A stretch of 64,000 nucleotides of DNA from Neoarius graeffei. Its lineage: Eukaryota > Chordata > Actinopteri > Siluriformes > Ariidae. Position numbers and translations under genes: made by a program. The notes under the pieces are model-generated. The model was not told the origin of the DNA, did not search any database, and saw nothing but the letters and a program-made list of their open reading frames with translations. Location of the stretch: assembly GCF_027579695.1 (NCBI RefSeq), contig NC_083571.1, forward strand, positions 38,576,943 through 38,640,942, written 5' to 3'. Below are positions 7,256-24,183 of this stretch, piece by piece (position 1 is the stretch's first letter; every line of letters begins with the position of its first letter).

Positions 7256-7303
7256 CTGTCTGTGTTGAGTGTGTGTGTGCAGAGAGAGAGAGAGAGAGAG
7301 AGA

Positions 7304-7361
<58 letters not shown>

Positions 7362-7464
7362 CTGTCTGTGTTGAGTGTGTGTGCAGAGAGAGAGAGAGAG
7401 AGAGAGTGTGTGTGTGTTTCTGTCTGTGTTGAGTGTGTGTGTGCAGAGAGAGAAAGAGAGAGAG

Positions 7465-7529
<65 letters not shown>

Positions 7530-7590
7530 CTGTCTGTGTTGAGTGTGTGTGTGCAGAGAGAGAGTGTGCGTGTGTGGTTAGAGTGTTAAT
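6905..7590. repeat. Compound (TG)n/(GA)n microsatellite
   Basis: TG runs of up to ~25 units alternate with GAGA runs and GTTTCTGTCTGTGTTGAG spacers. The larger module, TG run plus spacer plus CAGAGAGA, recurs at least four times between 7140 and 7560. All long frames here (poly Cys-Val and Arg-Glu) are artefacts. Confidence 0.95.
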
Positions 7591-8060
7591 GAATCATGCA
7601 TGCTGCACTAATTGACTCCATTATTGTCGTTTAATGAACATCTTTTCACTCGTTTGTCTTCGTTTATTCCTGCGTGTCCGACAGCTTGCTTCGATTTCAC
7701 CGCTAACACACATCGATTTTCCTCGATTAAAAATGCATTAATAACTTAACGTTCCAGACCTTCACGCTCACATTATTTCCTCTGAAATTTTCACTTTTCA
7801 TCCTCCATTAGGGTGGAAATAAAACCATAAAAATAATAAAAGTGGGATGCCATTGACTATGTGGAATTTTACTGTCCATGGCGTGGGATGCATGAGGTTT
7901 TCTTCTGGATCAGGAATTCTCTGGAGGGACAGTCTGACAGCTGAAATCTGATTGGTGCTCCATATGTTCTTCCTGACCACGGATGAGCTCGCATACAAAA
8001 CCTATAAGAGTTTAAACACCGGAGCATGCAGCCACAAACACATCCCCCGTTTCCTTAGGA
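7591..8060. other. No feature recognised (non-coding)
   Basis: AT-rich single-copy-looking sequence. No open frame of note, terminal repeats or similarity to the repeats elsewhere in the window. Confidence 0.5.
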
Positions 8061-14370: not shown

Positions 14371-15485
14371 ATCACAAAGATGCGGATCCGATCAAAGAGC
14401 CATAAATCCCATCTCTAATCTGCGCTCCGATATCGCACGGGTCATCCAGGTACGCTGGCATTGTCTCTAGAGGAAATGTCGGTGGAGAGGTGGTGTTTAA
14501 AAAGGGTGTGGTTAATCGGAAACCTCGGGTTAACCAAGAACATAACCTGAGACGAGCAGGTTTGAAATGCAGCGTAAGTTGCCATGGCAGCATACCTCGG
14601 TTTGAACATAGCCAACTTTCGTAGTATGGGTTAATCGGGAAGTTACGCTGCACGTGATCAAGTTACTCTCGAAGTTACCCTGGTAAGCCAGAAAACCCGC
14701 TTCGTAGTACAGGGCCCAGGGGAGACTAGCCAGAAACAGAACAAAGACTCAGTAACTAGAGACCAAACTGAGGAAGTATATATACCCAGGGTAATTAAGA
14801 AACTAGGCGGGGCAGAAAATAACGAACAGGTGGGGCAAAAGGCACATGAAAACAAAGGAGCACATGGCTGTCAAAACAAACACAGAACACAGAGACAATA
14901 GCGGCCTCTAGCTGTCAAAACAAACATAACAAAAAACAAAGGTAACATAGCGGCCTCTAGAGGCCCAGATAGTCCCAAGTCCTAACACTGCGCGCACATA
15001 CGTGTCGGCTGTCCGGCTACTGCTCGTGTTCATTAATAGGGTATCCCTGTACTCACTATACGCTGTGTATGTACATGGGACATGTGCTGTTTTGGGCGTG
15101 AACCTCACTTTGATTTTTACGACAGCGGCTGGATAGGTCTGTGAGAGATGTTGATTTTTGCAATGGCTCTGAAGAAAATCTGCTTGAAATCCACTGAGTC
15201 TTGGGAACTAAGACTTATTATAGGACTTGTTCAGATGCAACTCACACAATCATTGTATAGTTATCTCAGTCTATTAGACTCAGGAGCTCAGATTGCAGTT
15301 ACTGGCTTTGTATTATAGACATGCAACTCTTGCAGTCTTTGTTTATAGTTATCTCGGTATTTAGCTCTCTCTTAAGTGGCCACTTACATTACCTGGGTAT
15401 ATTCACTGTCTTATATGTACATTGAATGTTCTGAGCAGGAGCTCAGATTGCAGTTGCTAAAATGGTAATATTTGATTGATATAAG

Positions 15486-15715
15486 CCCAGATAGCAGAGG
15501 GACGTTGAAACGGCACCGATTCTTGGTCAGAATGGTCGGTTTCCGTCGTAAGTCAGAAAATCAACGCTGAAATGGCGCCGTGAAACGTCGATTTCTCCGC
15601 CGTCGGAGAAGGTCGATTTATCACTGTTGAATCACCGTGGGTAAAGGTTGATCTGTCGACCGTCAGAGAAGGTCGAATATACGATGTTGAACCATCGTCA
15701 CTTTTGCCGGCCAGT
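15486..15715. repeat. Left terminal and sub-terminal repeats of the EnSpm-like element
   Basis: TIR CCCAGATAGCAGAGGGACG, then repeated motifs: AAGGTCGA (three times), CCGTCGGAGAAGG/CCGTCAGAGAAGG, and ACGATGTTGAACC. These are probably transposase binding sites. Confidence 0.75.
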
Positions 15716-16299
15716 TTTCAACATTGGTAGGATGAGCTGTTCAGAATATAAATTGCCACTGTTTGTCTTATCCTGCTTACACATAGATACGAGTAAATGA
15801 TATAAGTATAAGTGATAATGATAAGTAAATGATAAAAAAAAGAACAAAAACCAGTTTACTTTCTTAACTCAGCAATGGATTTGACTTTGAAAGTTTTTTT
15901 GCAAATAACTTAACATTTCCAAGATGATCATAAATTAATTATAATTTATAATTATAATTTATAATTATAATTATTTAATTCATAATGTCCCATAATGCAG
16001 TGCGATTACCACTGCTGTTTACTGGATGACGTCATTTTCGTTATATACCTGGGTGCACGTGAAACTCCCACACCACTCGGTTGGATCGCGACTCTCTTGT
16101 GGATCGGCCTGCTGTTACGCTTGGACCATTGAAACAACATTGAGAAAAACACTGGACCACGCTACATTTTCATTCATCCCTGGACATCTGGTACGTACCA
16201 TTATTCAGTCACTATTAATAAAGGGAATTTCGAATACAATTTCAAGCAGTTTAAGAAGTTATGATGAACTTCAGTCATATCACGCGTTGGAGAAATTTC

Positions 16300-17367
16300 C
16301 CTCAACTAGTATCCATTTGAAACAACAACAATGCAGATGCATTATTCAATCGAAAAACGAGTCGAAGTACTTGTCTTGTTGGAGTGAAAACTTAGCGTTG
16401 GAGTGAAAACTTAGCGTTTAAATCGAGATCTATACCCGGCTTGAGGGGGTTGGGCTTTGTAACGCTATATGGGTCGCAGCCATTAGAACATGACTCCAGA
16501 CATTGTTAAAACATTGTTGGTATTAAAACAGAACTTTCTATAAAACAATTGTTTGAACTGTGTGTGTGTGTGTGTGTGCGCGTGTGTGCGTGTGTGTGTC
16601 CATTTGAAACAATAAACATGCAGATGCATTATTCAATCGAAAAACGAGTCGAAGTAGTTGTCTTGTTGGAGTGAAAACTTAGCGTTGGTGTGAAAACTTA
16701 GCGTTTAAATCGAGCATGTAGGCCTAGGTCGCATGTCGTTTTGAGCTGACCTGTTCTTTTGTGTAGCCATGGGTCGCGCCTTGCGGCCATGAACTTTAAA
16801 GATTATGCAGCTACCAACGCTTCTGTAGTGACCACTTTGTTTGAGGTACCACGAACGAAATTGCTTATATTCCCTCAACTAATACAATAAACATGCAGAT
16901 GCATTGTTTAGTCAAAAACTAGTCAAAGTAGTGGTCTTGATGGAGTGAAAACAAAGCATTTCAATCGAGTATATAGGCCGTGGTTATAACTGGTAGCTAT
17001 ACCCGGCTTGAGGGGGCTGGGCTTTGTAATGCTGTAGGCCTATACTGCCCTACAAAGCCAAAAGACCTTAACTCATCAGACTCATTAAAGGCTTCTGCCT
17101 TGGTTTTCCCTTTGCTTTTGGAAGTTACGGTAAAAACGACGTCTTATTGTTACCAGAAAAAAACAGAAATGACTCGAAATAATTCATCACATGATACAAC
17201 TGATGTCCTCTGTTCCAAAAATGGCAATAACTCATGTTGACCTTAAGTGATATTAAGGTCTTTTGGCTTTGTAGGGCAGTATGGGTCGCAGCCATTAGAA
17301 CATGACTCCAGACATTGTTAAAACATTGTTGGTATTAAAACAGAACTTTCTATAAAACAATTGTTTG

Positions 17368-17400
<33 letters not shown>
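16300..17400. repeat. Direct repeats in the 5' part of the EnSpm-like element
   Basis: A block of about 110 bp starting TATGGGTCGCAGCCATTAG occurs at 16468 and again at 17279, each ending in a TG microsatellite (16561-16600, 17372-17402). A second block containing CAGATGCATT and GAGTGAAAACTTAGCG occurs near 16330, 16620 and 16900. This may be the promoter or 5' UTR of the transposase gene, amplified. Confidence 0.8.
17045..17279. mobile_element. Mariner/Tc1-type MITE (235 bp)
   Basis: A perfect 27-bp inverted repeat starting CTGCCCTACAAAGCC is flanked by TA at 17043-17044 and 17280-17281. The uninterrupted sister copy at about 16466 (GCTATATGGGTCGC) gives the likely empty site. It has no coding capacity. 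The perfect inverted repeats suggest it is young. Confidence 0.85.
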
Positions 17401-17403
<3 letters not shown>

Positions 17404-17428
17404 GGTTATTTCAAATGTAATGACGTAA

Positions 17429-19528
17429 ATGTTGTTGTCTTTGTTCCCCCCATGTTTACCTCAATGGAACCTGAAGACCACTACCCCGTCATTCCCTCAA
17501 AAGGTACTGCAGACATTTATTTCTTTAGGGGAGAGAACATGGCTTCTTATTGGTCAAAAAAGAAGACGTGTTGTGACAGCTACTGAAATGTCAGAAAGGC
17601 AGATTCTGTCCGATTTTGAGTCAGCTCTGGGTAATCCTGCTGCTCAAGTCTCTCCTTCAATTGCATCACCCAGGCCTGCATCATCAATGGGTTTAGATGA
17701 GGATGGTGGGGATTCTGTTGAGTTGGGAGGGTGCAGTGATGCAGAGTCTGACAGCAGTAGCATGTCTTCAGAGGGTGACAGTGACAGTCATATTGATGGT
17801 GACTCTTTTGAAGAGTCAGGGCTTCACCAAAAATTAAAACACTGGGCTGCATCATTCTCTGTGCCTTTGATTGCCATTACTGCTCTGTTGACCATTTTGA
17901 GAACAAGCCACCCTGAACTGCCCAAGGATGCTAGGACCTTATTGGGCACTAAGCCTGCAGTACCATTACAGACCGTAGGTAATGGGGAATACTTCCATTT
18001 TGGCTTGGCAAAGGGAATTTTGTCCAAATTAAGCACCATCCATTTACCAGATGTTATTCAAACAATAAGAGTTCAATTTAACATCGATGGTCTCCCTATT
18101 TTCAAAAGCACCAGGCTTCAGTTTTGGCCTATTTTGGCACTGATTGATTGCGATTACACCAGAACACCGTTTTTAGTTGGCATCTTTTGTGGCCCTGGAA
18201 AACCCTCCAATGTGTTTGATTATCTGACGCAATTTGTTAAAGACCTCTCTGATCTGCTTTGCAATGGGGTAACATTTGGAGGTAGAAAGCTGAGGGTGGC
18301 CATTTCATCCTTCATTTGTGATGCTCCTGCTCGAGCATTTGTAAAACAAATTAAATGCCATAATGGGTACTCCGGATGCGATAAATGCCATCAGACTGGT
18401 ATTTGGCAGAAAAAAATGACGTATCCTGAGACTGATGTTAGGCTAAGGTCAGACGAGGAGTTTGAAAATATGGTAGATGAGGACCACCACATCAACAGAA
18501 GTCCTCTGAGGGGTCTGGTGAAAATGGTGTCTGCCTTCCCAATAGATTATATGCATTTATGTTGCCTTGGCGTTATGAAAAAGTTGATACATTTTTGGAT
18601 GAGGGGGAAAAACTCTACAAGGCAGCCTACAAGAGCCATTAAAGCCATCTCCGAAAAGTTAATACAGCTTCATCCCTATACTCCAGCTGAATTTGCACGG
18701 AAACCCCGTGAACTCGCCGAAACTGATAGGTGGAAAGCAGCAGAGCTGCGCCAATTTATGATTTACAGTGGGCCATTAGTTCTGAGGGACATTCTTCCAC
18801 AAGATCTCTATGAAAACTTCATGTTGTTTTCTGTGGCCATGTTTTTGCTACTCTCACCAAACATTTCTGAAAGTATGGTTTGTTTTTCTGAAAAATTGTT
18901 AATGGCTTTTGTAAAGCATTTTGGAGAGGTGTATGGTAAAGACGAGATTGTGTTTAGCGTACATCAAACAAAACATCTGACACATGAGCACCGCCAGTAT
19001 GGTTCCCTAGACAACATCTCATCCTTTCCTTACGAGAATTATTTGGGTAAACTAAAAAAAATGCTACGCAAGCCATCTCAACCTTTACAACAGGTTGTCA
19101 AACGCCTTTCAGAGGAGCCAGTTTGTTTATTTCCACCACCACCTACACAACCACAGTTGTTACACCCACACCAGGAGGGCCCATTACCCCAACACTTAAG
19201 TTCTGGCCAGCAATTTAAAAAAGTGCATTTCAATGATTTCTGTTTTTCTTCAAAGCAGGGCGATGATTGCCTAGTGATTAAAAATGAAATCGTAATGGTG
19301 AAAAACATAATTAAACATGGTGACTCTGTCTTTGTGGTTTACATGAAATTCAAGAGGAGGGAGTCATATTTCCACTATCCTTGCCCCTCCACAAGCATTG
19401 GCTGCTACAGAGTATTTGGCATAGACAGCTGCCTTAACGTTGACCGGCTTGAGGTTGTCCAGGGCAAATGTGTGTTGTTCCCAGATGGAGAGACCTTTGT
19501 GGCAATCCCTCTTCGTCACCATTCGTAA
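17429..19528 (+). CDS. EnSpm/CACTA-like transposase, intact 699-codon frame
   Basis: This would catalyse cut-and-paste movement of the surrounding element. Numbering is from the Met at 17429. The first ~53 residues are of doubtful origin, and Met54 (MSERQILSDFES, 17588) may be the true start or may follow an upstream exon. Residues 90-130 are acidic and serine-rich. The core has FNIDGLPIFKS (217-227), CDAPARAF (297-304), a zinc-like KCHNGYSGCDKCH (309-321), FPIDYMHLCCLGV (370-382), SGPLVLRDIL (447-456) and SFPYENYLGKLKKMLRKP (532-549). The Asp in NIDG and CDAP are candidate catalytic residues. These blocks match the transposase family of animal EnSpm-like elements as I remember it. No stop or frameshift breaks the frame, which is rare in this window. 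The next gene follows 178 bp downstream on the same strand. Confidence 0.8.
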   Translation: MLLSLFPPCLPQWNLKTTTPSFPQKVLQTFISLGERTWLLIGQKRRRVVTATEMSERQILSDFESALGNPAAQVSPSIASPRPASSMGLDEDGGDSVELGGCSDAESDSSSMSSEGDSDSHIDGDSFEESGLHQKLKHWAASFSVPLIAITALLTILRTSHPELPKDARTLLGTKPAVPLQTVGNGEYFHFGLAKGILSKLSTIHLPDVIQTIRVQFNIDGLPIFKSTRLQFWPILALIDCDYTRTPFLVGIFCGPGKPSNVFDYLTQFVKDLSDLLCNGVTFGGRKLRVAISSFICDAPARAFVKQIKCHNGYSGCDKCHQTGIWQKKMTYPETDVRLRSDEEFENMVDEDHHINRSPLRGLVKMVSAFPIDYMHLCCLGVMKKLIHFWMRGKNSTRQPTRAIKAISEKLIQLHPYTPAEFARKPRELAETDRWKAAELRQFMIYSGPLVLRDILPQDLYENFMLFSVAMFLLLSPNISESMVCFSEKLLMAFVKHFGEVYGKDEIVFSVHQTKHLTHEHRQYGSLDNISSFPYENYLGKLKKMLRKPSQPLQQVVKRLSEEPVCLFPPPPTQPQLLHPHQEGPLPQHLSSGQQFKKVHFNDFCFSSKQGDDCLVIKNEIVMVKNIIKHGDSVFVVYMKFKRRESYFHYPCPSTSIGCYRVFGIDSCLNVDRLEVVQGKCVLFPDGETFVAIPLRHHS

Positions 19529-19556
19529 ACCTATATGGGAAGAAAAAAAAACACAA

Positions 19557-19558
<2 letters not shown>

Positions 19559-19589
<31 letters not shown>
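19559..19589. repeat. (AC)n microsatellite between the two EnSpm-like genes
   Basis: About 14 AC units just after the transposase stop codon. Confidence 0.9.
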
Positions 19590-19590
<1 letters not shown>

Positions 19591-19706
19591 GAAACACATC
19601 TTTACTTATGCATTAGAAGGAATCTGGACAGTTGGAGTACTCCAGCTGGATGGCAGGCACTAACTATCCTTTCCATGGAGTACTTTTTTTATTTTTTTTA
19701 TTATAG

Positions 19707-22700
19707 ATGGCACAGATTTGGAAAGTTGTGGAATTCCAAGACCGGAGTGCAGCAGTTGTGTCGTCCAGCTGGGTGGTAGATGTTGACGGAGAAGTGGGAT
19801 GCTACTGGCCACCCTTTGGCGGAAACAAAGCTGTGAAGGCCGCCATGAACTGCACCCCCCCGGGACAAGGATGGCAATTCCATCAAAAAATAAGGGTGCT
19901 GGCAACCTGTGGTGAGCTGCATAGCTACTTCATTAAACCAATGACAATACTTCAATATTGCATTAAGCCAATTTCATTAAGACTGCCTTCCCTTTCAGGC
20001 ACCTTTGCCAAAGCAAGACGTTACCTGACCCGATCGCTTGAGGAAGGCTGCCTTACAGCAGACCTGCAATCGGATGATGGTGAGATGGGGCCAAGGAAAA
20101 GACGGTAAAAGTGTTTTCTTTTTTAAATCACAACTTGCAGTTATAAGTTCAATTACGGTTTCGTTTGTGTTTTGAGCTGTGTCAGTAAGGTCCTGGGTTT
20201 ATTTTAAAGACCAAACAAAAGGTATTTGGAGGAGGACAGCGAGGAGGAGGCAGGACCAAGCCGTAGGGGGAGGAGGCCACCATCTATTGACGCCACTCAG
20301 CTGGACAGCGAGTGGCAATTCCCCTCCCTTAATGAAGGTGACTATCTGTACCACTTGTTGTTGTTGTTCTACTAAAGACCTAGAAGTTGTCTGAAATAAT
20401 AATGCTTTCATTTCCGTCTTCAGACACCCAGCCAGGCCTGTTTCTTCACAGCCAGCCATTAACTCATGGTAACTATGCATTTCCTTTATTTATGCCAGAA
20501 ATTAAAATACCAGTGAGTAAGTGAAGATATGTTTTGATCAACTGACTGCTTACTATTTTTCAGATTCACCGTCGTCAGAAACCCCGCCAGGCCCTTTCCT
20601 TCACAGCCAGCCACTAACCCATGGTAACTATGCATTGCCTTGATTTATGCCATAAACGACTAAAAAAACAAAACAACAAACAAATATCTATGTAGATGCG
20701 TTTTGATCAACTGACTATACAATTTTTCAGATTCACCCCAGCCACGTCACCGCTTCCATGGTAAGTCAAAGAGGAAATCAATCAATCAACATGAAAATTG
20801 TGAATTTAGAACAGAAATTAAATTAAGGCGCACCTTGAAGTGAACTAAATTGTACTCTCTGATATTTCAGCCACACCTCTGCCATCGCAACAGGGGAACA
20901 ATCAGTTGCTGCGTGGTGAGTCCACAACTGTAATCACTGGTCATAAATGACCAGCAATGTGAAATAAAAGTCCTAATGTTTGGTGTTACTTAACAGACAT
21001 GGGCATCAGCACCGTCATTGCTCTCCTTGGCCAGCTGAGGGAGGAAAACTGACTGCTTACTATTTTTCAGATTCACCGTCTTCAGAAACCCCGCCAGGCC
21101 CTTTCCTTCACAGCCAGCCACTAACCCATGGTAACTATGCATTGCCTTTATTTATGCCAAAAACGACAAAAAAACAACAAAACGACAAACAAATATCTAT
21201 GTAGATGCATTTTGATCAACTGACTATACAATTTTTCAGATTCACCCCAGCCACGTCACTGCTTCCATGGTAAGTCAAAGAGGAAATCAATCAATCAACA
21301 TGAAAATTGTGAATTTAGAACAGAAATTAAATTAAGGCGCACCTTGAAGTGAACTAAATTGTACTCTCTGATATTTCAGCCACACCTCTGCCATCGCAAC
21401 AGGGGAACAATCAGTTGCTGCGTGGTGAGTCATCAACTGTAATCACTGTTCAAAAATGACCAGCAATATGAAATAAAAGTCCTAATGTTTGGTGTTACTT
21501 AACAGACATTGGCATCAGCACAGTCATCGCTCTCCTTGGCCAGCTGAGGGAGGAAAACAGGGAGCTGAAGGGGGAAGTAGGAAGGCTGGCGCAAGAGGTC
21601 AGGGCCCTAAGGAGAGAGATGGGGAGACAAGACACACCCCAGACATCGCCCCTAATCAAGCTCCCACTCTCCACCATGGAGGAGTTTTTGGCAGCAGAGG
21701 CCCTGGTGAAGGAAGATGCCAAACAAAAGCAGCTAATGGTACTTATTGAGTCTTACCTTTCCTTTCCAGTCATCTGCAACACCTGCAAAAAGAAACACAA
21801 ATACTTAATATCATTGTGAATCAATGAAACAATGATAAACACTGAATACTTTCTCATTATTGTCTTCATGCTACATTTTATTCTATCAGGTGTCTACCTT
21901 AGCCCTTTGTGGAGGAACCGACGTAGGGGTCACAGTCAGGCGGATGCTGCGTAGCCTCCTGGTCAACAGCTTGGCCAGCCAATTTAACTGGGCTGGAAAG
22001 GGGGGAAAAAACTGTGTTTAAGGACACCAAGATCCATGATGTCCTGTTTGGTAGGTTATGCATGTGCACAAAGCTGTAAAAGAGGGTAAAATAGTAAGCT
22101 GTCACAAGTACTTGCACACTACTTCTAAACGTTCTTTGATAACTCCTTCACTAACTGTAACATTATGATTATAACGACAACGACAAACATATTGTGAAAG
22201 ATGCAAAGGATTAAAAAGGATTAAGAAACTCACCAGGCGCCTTACTCAGAAAAAGCAGGTGTGCAGGCAAGTCCAGGGAGGCTGACTGAGTGACGAATGG
22301 TCCGGTACTGGCATTTCTATTTCCGCTTTGTGTCAATGGGGAAATTAAAATGTTTTTTTTTTTTAATCCCGTTTAAATTGTCACAAGATTCACATCTATG
22401 GTTTCTGATTTTTACATATATTTTCTGTACTAGTGCCATTACTTGCCACCTACCACTAGAGTGTGACGTGCATAGTCTTAACAACTCAAACTTTAACAAT
22501 TATCACCATGCAAAGTCTCAATGTTGTTTTGTTCTTTTTCTTTCAGATGCTCTACAAAAGCAGCTGCCAGGGAGCACACATGCTACTTTTAGTGACGCAA
22601 TCAAGAAGTGGCTTAAGTATGCGCCAGAGAGAGAGGGAGGGATGAGGAGACGTGAGGTAGGGTGACATTTAGAAACTCATAGCCTACTGCTGACTTTCTT

Positions 22701-23149
22701 TATCAATGCTGCATCAAATTAATTTTGGTTATGTTTTTCTGTGGCGGCACGGTGGTGTAGTGGTTAGCGCTGTCGCCTCACAGCAAGAAGGTCCTGGGTT
22801 TGAGCCCCGGGGCTGGCGAGGGCCTTTCTGTGTGGAGTTTGCATGTTCTCCCCGTGTCCGCGTGGGTTTCCTCCGGGTGCTCCGGTTTCCCCCACAGTCC
22901 AAAGACATGCAGGTTAGGTTAACTGGTGACTCGAAATTGACCGTAGGTGTGAATGGTTGTCTGTGTCTATGTGTCAGCTCTGTGATGACCTGGCGACTTG
23001 TCCAGGGTGTACCCCGCCTTTCGCCCGTGGTCAGCTGGGATGGGCTCTGGCTTGCCTGCGACCCTGTAGAAGGATGAAGCGGCTGGAGATAATGAGATGA
23101 GATGTTTTTCTGTTTCCATGTACAGGTGTCTGCGCCGCAGGAGGAATAG
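19707..23149 (+). CDS. DUF4806-type accessory gene of the EnSpm-like element, multi-exon
   Basis: Exons with GT..AG borders: 19707-19911 (MAQIWKVVEFQD, PGQGWQFHQKIRVLATC), 19999-20104 (TFAKARRYLTRSLEEGCLTADLQSD), 20222-20337, 20424-20468, 20564-20623, 20731-20760, 20871-20915, duplicates 21071-21130, 21240-21269, 21380-21424, then 21506-21738 (coiled coil LREENRELKGEV, KLPLSTMEEF), 21900-22050 (LCGGTDVGVTVRRMLRSLL, QFNWAGKGGK), 22547-22656 (IKKWLKYAPEREGG) and 23126-23149 (stop). Phases agree from exon to exon. The C-terminal blocks are those of the DUF4806 domain; its function is unknown, but it is often found beside EnSpm-like transposases. One extra A in the run at about 22009 shifts the frame within GGKN. 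AATAAA follows at about 23170. The last intron holds a SINE. Exon borders are my reading by eye. Confidence 0.7.
20543..21556 (+). repeat. 507-bp tandem duplication of accessory-gene exons
   Basis: 20543-21049 and 21050-21556 are near identical, including four exons or exon parts and their introns. The junction joins GGAAAAC inside an exon to the intron sequence TGACTGC, with AAC shared at the break. The first copy of the coiled-coil exon is therefore cut short by a stop (TGA at 21050). Confidence 0.92.
22743..23101 (+). mobile_element. tRNA-derived SINE, full-length copy (d)
   Basis: Same family as 10510-10897. Perfect target duplication ATGTTTTTCTGT at 22731-22742 and 23102-23113. It lies in the last intron of the DUF4806-type gene, in the same direction. 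Confidence 0.95.
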
Positions 23150-23570
23150 GCCACAATTATAAATTATAAATAAATCATAAAATGTTTCTAAGAACTTGTT
23201 CAAGTGTGTTCTGTTCCTTATAAATGTTAAAAGTTATGCCTCATTAGATAGCTTGACAAACATTAGGAGAGGTGCATTGTTGCATGCATTTTTATATCCT
23301 GTTGTACATAAAACAGGACGTAGCCTACGCACATTGATATAAATTAAGTTTCACTTTCATGGTTGAAGTATGCGTGTGTTCATCCTAAGCAAGAGCCCCG
23401 ATGCTTTATTGTTAGCTAGTTTAATTTAGCCTGTTTTGCTTAATTTGTAGCCTTCCTGTTGTACATAAAACAGGAAGTAAAGTTGGATGAATCATCGCCG
23501 AAAATTAAACTATAAATTGACCGAAATCCGTAGTTGAATAAAGGGTGAAAGGGGGGTCTATTCTCTGTCG

Positions 23571-23723
23571 GCCACCATCCACTTTTCAACGTCGTTTCAA
23601 CGCAAACTCGTATGAGCAAAGCGGTGTTGAATCAACACCGGTGATCCACGATGATTCGACGGCGTATGGTCGAAGAACATGCCGATGATTCCCCGTCGAA
23701 TCAACGCCCTTTTGCTATCTGGG
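23571..23723. repeat. Right sub-terminal and terminal repeats of the EnSpm-like element
   Basis: GTCGTTTCAACGC, GTTGAATCAACACCGG, GATTCGACGGCG, CCGTCGAATCAACGCCC and TGCTATCTGGG: short palindromic GTCGA/GTTGA motifs mirroring those of the left end. Confidence 0.72.
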
Positions 23724-23821
23724 AGGTGATTTGTGGTCAGTAACACTGTAGTGTGTCATGTGGCAGTGCATTATATGACAATGCAACTTTCATAAATATT
23801 ACCATATATCAGATGTAATTA

Positions 23822-24183
23822 TCTCATCTCATTATCTCTAGCCGCTTTATCCTGTTCTATAGGGTCGCAGGCCAGCTGGAGCCTATCCCAGCTGACTACA
23901 GGCAAAAGGCGGGGTACACCCTGGACAAGTCGCCAGGTCATCACAGGGCTGACACAGAGACACAGACAACCATTCACACTCACAGTCAATTTAGAGTCAC
24001 CAGTTAACCTAACCTGCATGTCTTTGGACTGTGGGGGAAACCGGAGCACCCGGAGGAAACCCACGCGGACACGGGGAGAACATGCAAACTCCGCACAGAA
24101 AGGCCCTCGCCGGTCCCGGGGCTCAAACCCGGACCTTCTTGCTGTGAGGCAACAGTGCTAACCACTACACCACCGTGCCGCCC
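23822..24183 (-). mobile_element. tRNA-derived SINE, full-length copy (e)
   Basis: Inverted copy of the 10510-10897 family, from the tail (TCTCATCTCATTATC) to the head (GTGCCGCCC). The target duplication is not clear (ATTA-like words only). Confidence 0.9.

Follow-up and report, generated by a model that had tools for sequence, protein, structure and literature searches.

The 64,000-bp stretch of Neoarius graeffei DNA analysed here (contig NC_083571.1, positions 38,576,943 to 38,640,942 of the forward strand; hereafter the window) harbours an EnSpm-like element of 8,238 bp at 15486-23723, in which a transposase gene is followed on the same strand by a spliced gene for a DUF4806-type protein. 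The element is bounded by the terminal inverted repeats CCCAGATAGCA (15486..15496, +) and TGCTATCTGGG (23713..23723, -), which match perfectly for 11 bp and show 70% complementarity across 44 bp, and is flanked by the unstranded target-site duplication AG (15484..15485 and 23724..23725). The 11-bp end sequence occurs only twice in the window, namely at the element's own ends. In the host genome (2.34 Gb, 38 contigs) it was found 1188 times in forward and 1150 times in reverse orientation (2,338 in total), compared to 25 and 17 times (42) for the reversed control. End statistics were collected for 21 elements, i.e. 20 fetched pairs plus the window copy, taking the outermost ends if a locus has several. 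Flanks matched over 2 bp in 17 of these 21 elements, which form a few sequence groups so that counts over them are not independent, and over 3 bp in none of the 21; combining flanks across elements gave 38 matches of 420 at 2 bp. One of the 17, L027, sits in a TA run and is ambiguous, and the four elements without a 2-bp match are L012, L013, L014 and L028. The same ends enclose the same interior in both other complete autonomous copies fetched, L014 (without target duplication) and L018. The matching inverted ends proposed in an initial annotation of this DNA are thus borne out by the exact 11-bp repeat, its recurrence genome-wide and the AG duplication.

Elements of the CMC (CACTA/EnSpm-Mirage-Chapaev) group carry terminal inverted repeats with target-site duplications of 2 to 5 bp, as found here (2 bp in 17/21 elements), and in most cases have CA..TG termini, whereas the termini of this element are CCC..GGG. 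CA..TG is not an exclusive feature, because CCC ends together with 2-bp duplications were published for animal CACTA elements in 2006 (PMC1636069). The animal ‘TRC’ elements described there, SmTRC1 of Schistosoma and an Aedes aegypti element with the end CCCAGTCAAC, share the CCC core and the 2-bp duplication with the window element, and CCCAG is as in Aedes. The remark in the initial annotation that the ends are not CACTA is therefore correct, but describes nothing unusual. Differences from TRC are that the available part of PMC1636069 mentions no DUF4806 partner, and that the window transposase has no match to Pfam Transposase_21. Plant CACTA elements, in contrast, have CACTA ends and 3-bp duplications (3 bp being given for a soybean element).

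The transposase is encoded by an open reading frame (ORF) of 699 codons (17429..19528, +). In the numbering of this ORF the CMC motif set D, D, C(2)C, H(3)H, E (PMC12730594) was assigned by eye to D220, D298, C317/C320, H512/H516 and E536. Equivalents were read, also by eye, in a second transposase family represented by L059, which is 38% identical. A Pfam search with the window transposase returned DUF4218, which we take to be a marker of CACTA transposases, at E=0.021 and 15.1 bits, below the cut-off of 27; the L059 transposase was assigned to no Pfam family. The ORF had been annotated as an uninterrupted transposase. It is indeed open, but alignment with other copies (31 rows representing 30 copies, since L018 and L036 are one place) revealed a frame shift near codon 44 that is present in the window copy only and absent from 30/30 other copies. 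Judged by this alignment, the first ~44 of the 699 codons are spurious and in the wrong frame. The family start codon (MASYW...), from which the transposase gene extends over 17539..19528 (+), is out of frame in the window copy because of this shift, and reading from 17539 reaches a stop after 15 codons. A slightly shorter transposase could be made from a later in-frame ATG.

The DUF4806 gene (19707..23149, +) starts 178 bp downstream of the transposase gene, head-to-tail, and comprises 11 exon types plus duplicated exons 5-7. All exons lie on the forward strand: exons 1-4 at 19707-19911, 19999-20104, 20210-20337 and 20424-20468, exons 5-8 at 20564-20623, 20731-20760, 20871-20915 and 21506-21738, and exons 9-11 at 21890-22050, 22547-22656 and 23126-23149. 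The GT-AG borders are found at matching positions in ten more copies; several of these copies lack individual sites or exons. The DUF4806 domain (PF16064, curated cut-off 25 bits) was recognized in the window exon 8-9 piece right at the cut-off (E=2.4e-5, 25 bits), in the spliced protein of L062 (4.5e-7, 30.5 bits) and in two joined exons of L059 (2.1e-10, 41.2 bits). The spliced DUF4806-type gene predicted head-to-tail with the transposase is upheld by these borders, the domain match and the shared strand. The N-terminal part of the protein has no Pfam match, and an NCBIfam search gave no match. A search with the Pfam DUF4806 model over the genome (46 candidates scored) and 14 control genomes found none either; this null is uninformative, likely because the domain is split over exons. 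The coiled coil that had been noted in this protein is plausible from exon 8, but the matches of that exon to coiled coils are weak only. A tandem duplication of ~507 bp (20540..21553, +) covers exons 5-7 and part of exon 8; it is also present in L014, L061, L062 and L066, partly in L067-L070, and not in L018 or L063-L065. The duplicated exons 5-7 are symmetric (phase 1) and are accompanied by a truncated exon 8, and the duplication is found in some copies of both subfamilies introduced below.

The gene is damaged in the window copy. Exon 9 (21890..22050, +), which encodes the core of the DUF4806 domain, carries a private frameshift: it is one base longer than in 10/10 copies compared, leading to a premature stop. 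Furthermore, the last intron contains a short interspersed nuclear element (SINE; 22743..23101, +), presumably tRNA-derived, at which the element homology jumps from 7257 to 7617. Eight fetched relatives extend across this site and lack the SINE (L008, L011, L013, L014, L016, L018, L025 and L028). A second copy of this SINE lies in opposite orientation just outside the element, at 23821-24182. The description of this copy as nearly intact consequently holds for its layout, but not for its two reading frames, which are broken at about codon 44 of the transposase and in exon 9 of the DUF4806 gene, and the SINE has entered the last intron.

Pairing of the two genes was examined by searching the genome with each gene separately; 64 transposase places were scored of 765 first-look candidates. 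DUF4806 exon 1 was located downstream, on the same strand and within 12 kb, at 62 of the 64 scored places. Among places matched up to the transposase C-terminus, 37/38 have exon 1 at a distance of 157-212 bp. Only ~0.0008 exon-1 matches are expected per transposase within 12 kb, and chance neighbourhood is ruled out. Since copies of one element alone cannot show selection, comparisons across transposase families and between subfamilies were included. An exon-1 homologue lies downstream on the same strand at 26 of 35 places of other transposase families, i.e. at 15/15 places of the L059 family and at 11/20 of the remaining places. By identity and spacing these pairs fall into four groups, with distances of 63-84 bp (458-459 if the match stops early), 161-168, 371 and 1012-1015 bp. 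Some of these exon-1 matches are weak when taken alone (E 0.02 to 0.42) and are credible because of their fixed place beside the transposase. The L059/L060 transposase family displays the same gene order and a clear DUF4806 domain.

Copies of the window family can be divided into subfamilies A and B, between which ratios of nonsynonymous to synonymous substitution (dN/dS) were estimated by the Nei-Gojobori method with no test against 1. For the transposase, 8 pairs gave ratios of 0.31-0.41; for DUF4806, 4 pairs gave 0.36-0.40 over exons 1-9. Within DUF4806, exons 8-9, which contain the likely coiled coil and the larger part of the DUF4806 domain, have lower values of 0.21-0.23. The co-occurrence at 62/64 window-family and 26/35 other-family places and the dN/dS below 0.5 in both genes bear out the conserved partnership that had been suggested, and support an EnSpm-like element with a conserved DUF4806 partner as judged from these comparisons. 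The transposases of A and B are ~97% identical, while flanking stretches are mostly 87-95% identical; dS is 0.06-0.08 for the transposase versus 0.17-0.21 for DUF4806. Recombination has probably moved the transposase between subfamilies that each kept their own partner, which would give the element a mosaic origin. A step in A/B divergence at 17784-19577 of the window coincides with the transposase ORF, with 95-98% identity inside and mostly lower values outside.

The ends of the element are rich in short repeats. Subterminal regions were defined as the outer 230 bp of each end, and the hexamer GTYGAW was counted in them on both strands. It occurs 327 times per 9,660 bp of ends and 55 times per 43,315 bp of interiors, a ~27-fold difference; the 55,762 bp of window sequence beyond the element contain 54. 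The window copy has 8 GTYGAW in its left region (15486..15715, +) and 9 in its right region (23494..23723, -), compared to 0.31 per 230 bp inside. The commonest 6-mer of its ends was seen 7 times, a number reached in 0 of 1000 mononucleotide shuffles. Two GTYGA half-sites build the palindrome GTYGANTCRAC, of which the 64 kb contain two occurrences, both located in the right end and unstranded: GTTGAATCAAC at 23626..23636 and GTCGAATCAAC at 23695..23705, the latter 18 bp from the right end. The palindrome stands exactly 18 bp from one end in 16/21 elements. Among 18 fetched elements without transposase match, 14 have at least 6 hexamers at each end. The arrays are kept even in L009, L015, L019, L020, L022 and L027, whose similarity to the window is confined to the SINE and the 11-bp end. 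L021, which shares the ends and has a 2-bp duplication, contains few GTYGAW and appears as a distinct non-autonomous group.

Signals for expression of both genes were recognized between the left end and the DUF4806 gene, all on the forward strand. A putative promoter TATA box, TATATA, lies at 16042..16047, as located from the sequence and an alignment of three copies. It is followed by GTACGT at 16191..16196, a putative splice donor of a leader exon; this donor-like hexamer after the TATA-containing stretch is identical in the window, L018 and L014, and thus kept in 3/3 complete copies aligned. Candidate splice acceptors AG are found at 17527..17528, 10 nt before the family transposase start codon, and at 19705..19706, directly before the DUF4806 start codon. 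Their counterparts in L059 are acceptor-like sites at 7 nt (DUF4806) and 4 nt (transposase). In all, acceptor-like sites occur within 12 nt of 4/4 start codons; with the threshold that these four reach, 113 of the 1510 ATGs in the window qualify. Probably one leader serves two proteins via two acceptors, although both the sharing of the leader and the actual splicing are read from sequence signals. We regard the subterminal repeats and the splice acceptors, both absent from the initial annotation, as more informative features than the coiled coil.

Taken together, we consider it fairly probable that the window holds an animal CACTA/EnSpm (CMC) transposon of the autonomous type, in a damaged copy, and that this transposon operates as a two-protein system. 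A DDE transposase would cut at the CCCAG... ends and insert the element with a 2-bp duplication. The DUF4806 protein would consist of an N-terminal domain, a coiled coil and a BEN-type C-terminal domain, and is proposed to bind, probably as a dimer, the half-sites (GTYGA) and palindromes (GTYGANTCRAC) that are arrayed within ~230 bp of either terminus. A palindromic site would suit a dimeric protein, and the DUF4806 partner has a likely coiled coil. The bound protein may assemble a paired-end complex and/or control the element promoter, by analogy to the unrelated TnpA in maize En/Spm. Both proteins would be made from one 5' leader by choice of acceptor, either before the transposase start or exactly at the DUF4806 start, and intron 1 of the DUF4806 transcript would thereby include the transposase gene. 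DUF4806 has been called a BEN subtype in PMC11075544, citing Pan et al. 2023, and the BEN relation rests on that citation. BEN domains can bind palindromes, and one has been noted that does not (PMC7764960).

Maize En/Spm likewise encodes two proteins, TnpA and TnpD, with the transposase upstream and a multi-exon second gene downstream (PMC2613891). Maize tnpA has 11 exons, and the DUF4806 gene has 11 exon types (PMC2613891). In maize, the intron-1 region of tnpA contains the tnpD ORF, and the window transposase apparently has the corresponding place in the first intron of the DUF4806 transcript (PMC2613891 for maize). Subterminal repeat arrays of En/Spm are bound by TnpA; the window element has similar arrays, for which binding by the partner is proposed by analogy (PMC2613891 for maize). 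No relationship is known between the TnpA and DUF4806 proteins themselves.

Other roles for the DUF4806 protein were weighed against this two-protein system. It might mainly be an anti-silencing or promoter regulator, in the manner of VANC or of the promoter role of TnpA, and take no part in the cutting complex. Anti-silencing proteins of Arabidopsis VANDALs act sequence-specifically on noncoding regions of their own element (PMC10398659), TnpA also reactivates methylated promoters (PMC1636069), and the left GTYGAW array is situated upstream of the putative promoter. However, site density is similar at the right end, far from that promoter (9 versus 8 hexamers), and arrays of at least 6 hexamers at each end are kept in the same 14/18 elements without transposase match, so that a purely regulatory role appears unlikely. 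It has also to be considered that the transposase alone or a host protein could bind the repeats, with DUF4806 acting elsewhere, for instance in import, target choice or repression. The N-terminal domain, being without Pfam match, leaves room for such another role. The En/Spm repeats, in contrast, are bound by the second protein (PMC2613891), and the reported DNA-binding fold of DUF4806 points to DUF4806 as the repeat binder; we consider this alternative quite improbable. A further possibility is that the element captured the DUF4806 gene from its host and merely transports it as a passenger; this would fit with DUF4806 genes in animal genomes having been described, in the available texts, without reference to transposons. 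This explanation is hard to reconcile with an order and strand that are constant in the window family and in the four further transposase groups, with the dN/dS of DUF4806 given above, and with the acceptor-like site that precedes the DUF4806 start codon in each of the two families examined, and is considered very improbable.

Besides the dependence among the 21 elements and the form of the dN/dS estimates mentioned above, several observations weigh against the two-protein system. Regarding the pairing, none of the 64 scored transposases accompanies 29/91 exon-1 places, which could, but need not, be lone partners, given that most transposase candidates were left unscored. No partner was detected for 9/35 other-family transposases, namely the 9 places that are 44-46% identical to the L059 transposase. 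The dN/dS of DUF4806 exons 1-3 is 0.47-0.50, so that the N-terminal part is only mildly constrained. Regarding the binding sites, the palindrome at offset 18 is present at one end only (16/42 ends) and is absent in 5/21 elements. Genome-wide it shows no excess (4038 per strand, versus 7217 for the reversed control, a weak control without the CpG of the pattern). L021 has 4 and 0 GTYGAW at its ends, and in L010, L012 and L023 one of the ends carries just a single hexamer. As said, the transposase or a host factor could be the binder of the repeats. Regarding the protein itself, the spliced DUF4806 protein of L062 has no BEN match in Pfam. A sequence search of solved structures returned 12 weak matches with an E value of 0.053 at best; most of them are to coiled coils or designed scaffolds, and none is to a BEN structure. 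AlphaFold predictions without alignment, for a 133-amino-acid DUF4806 N-terminal part with in-frame intron and for the 699-amino-acid transposase, had a predicted local distance difference test (pLDDT) score of 34 and are unusable.

A broader hypothesis is put forward tentatively: animal CACTA elements might in general use a TnpA/TnpD-type system, in which the role of TnpA is filled by an unrelated DUF4806/BEN-type protein through alternative splicing over the transposase. Many animal DUF4806 proteins would then be such partners or domesticated factors. DUF4806 genes of zebrafish chromosome 4, which share the domain in another fish genome, were described as possible chromatin factors, and no transposon link is made in the available part of that paper (PMC11075544). 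DUF4806 is numerous or enriched in some animal genomes, as in a Hydra table (PMC7642931) and in an ambrosia beetle (PMC13270666), and also occurs in PMC11445403. A link between DUF4806 and transposons was absent from titles and abstract openings among the literature matches listed; elements of this kind may be present in Repbase, which was outside this scope. Expansions of the DUF4806 gene family that have been reported may include transposons in their counts. DUF4806 is a domain of unknown function, and its place as second gene in several CACTA families, together with a defined end repeat, makes a direct binding test feasible. It is suggested that plant and animal CACTA elements have their ends recognized by unrelated second proteins within the same genomic layout.

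The history of the window family can be read from its copies. Over 1.94 kb of transposase, the 23 copies of the window subfamily (window included) share a mean identity of 99.04% with 3-14 private changes each. On these figures this is a star-like burst and the family was recently active. The recent activity suggested earlier therefore applies to the family, but not to the window copy, which carries lesions in both genes and on this evidence is without sign of present activity. Its breaks may be real or may be assembly errors in base runs. Of five subfamily-A copies for which the DUF4806 exons were joined, two, L062 and L065, are open to the end region; the exon 3 donor is altered in L062 and the stop codon is lost in L065, and the transposases beside both have no internal stop. 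The other three, as well as L018, have their own breaks.

The second CACTA family (L059/L060) is probably younger than the window family and is a better candidate for current activity. It has 12 near-full-length transposase places with 100% protein identity and open frames of 667-674 amino acids, distributed over eight contigs (C18, C26, C20, C23, C9, C2, C1 and C16). No inverted ends were found for this family in the eight copies examined, among which only two different left flanks occur, each shared by several copies. A tandem array occupies L059:918-2448, directly upstream of the part that copies of the family have in common; its repeat unit measures 162 bp and contains many GGGCCC/CCCATGTGGG-like words. 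Similar GC-rich words are present to the right of the L060 copy, and these are possibly the family's own subterminal repeats. In several copies, a fragment resembling exon 1 lies ~3 kb upstream of the transposase and on the other strand (e.g. C23:5374835-5374921 (-) and C2:25544684-25544770 (-)), which possibly belongs to a second, diverged DUF4806 gene.

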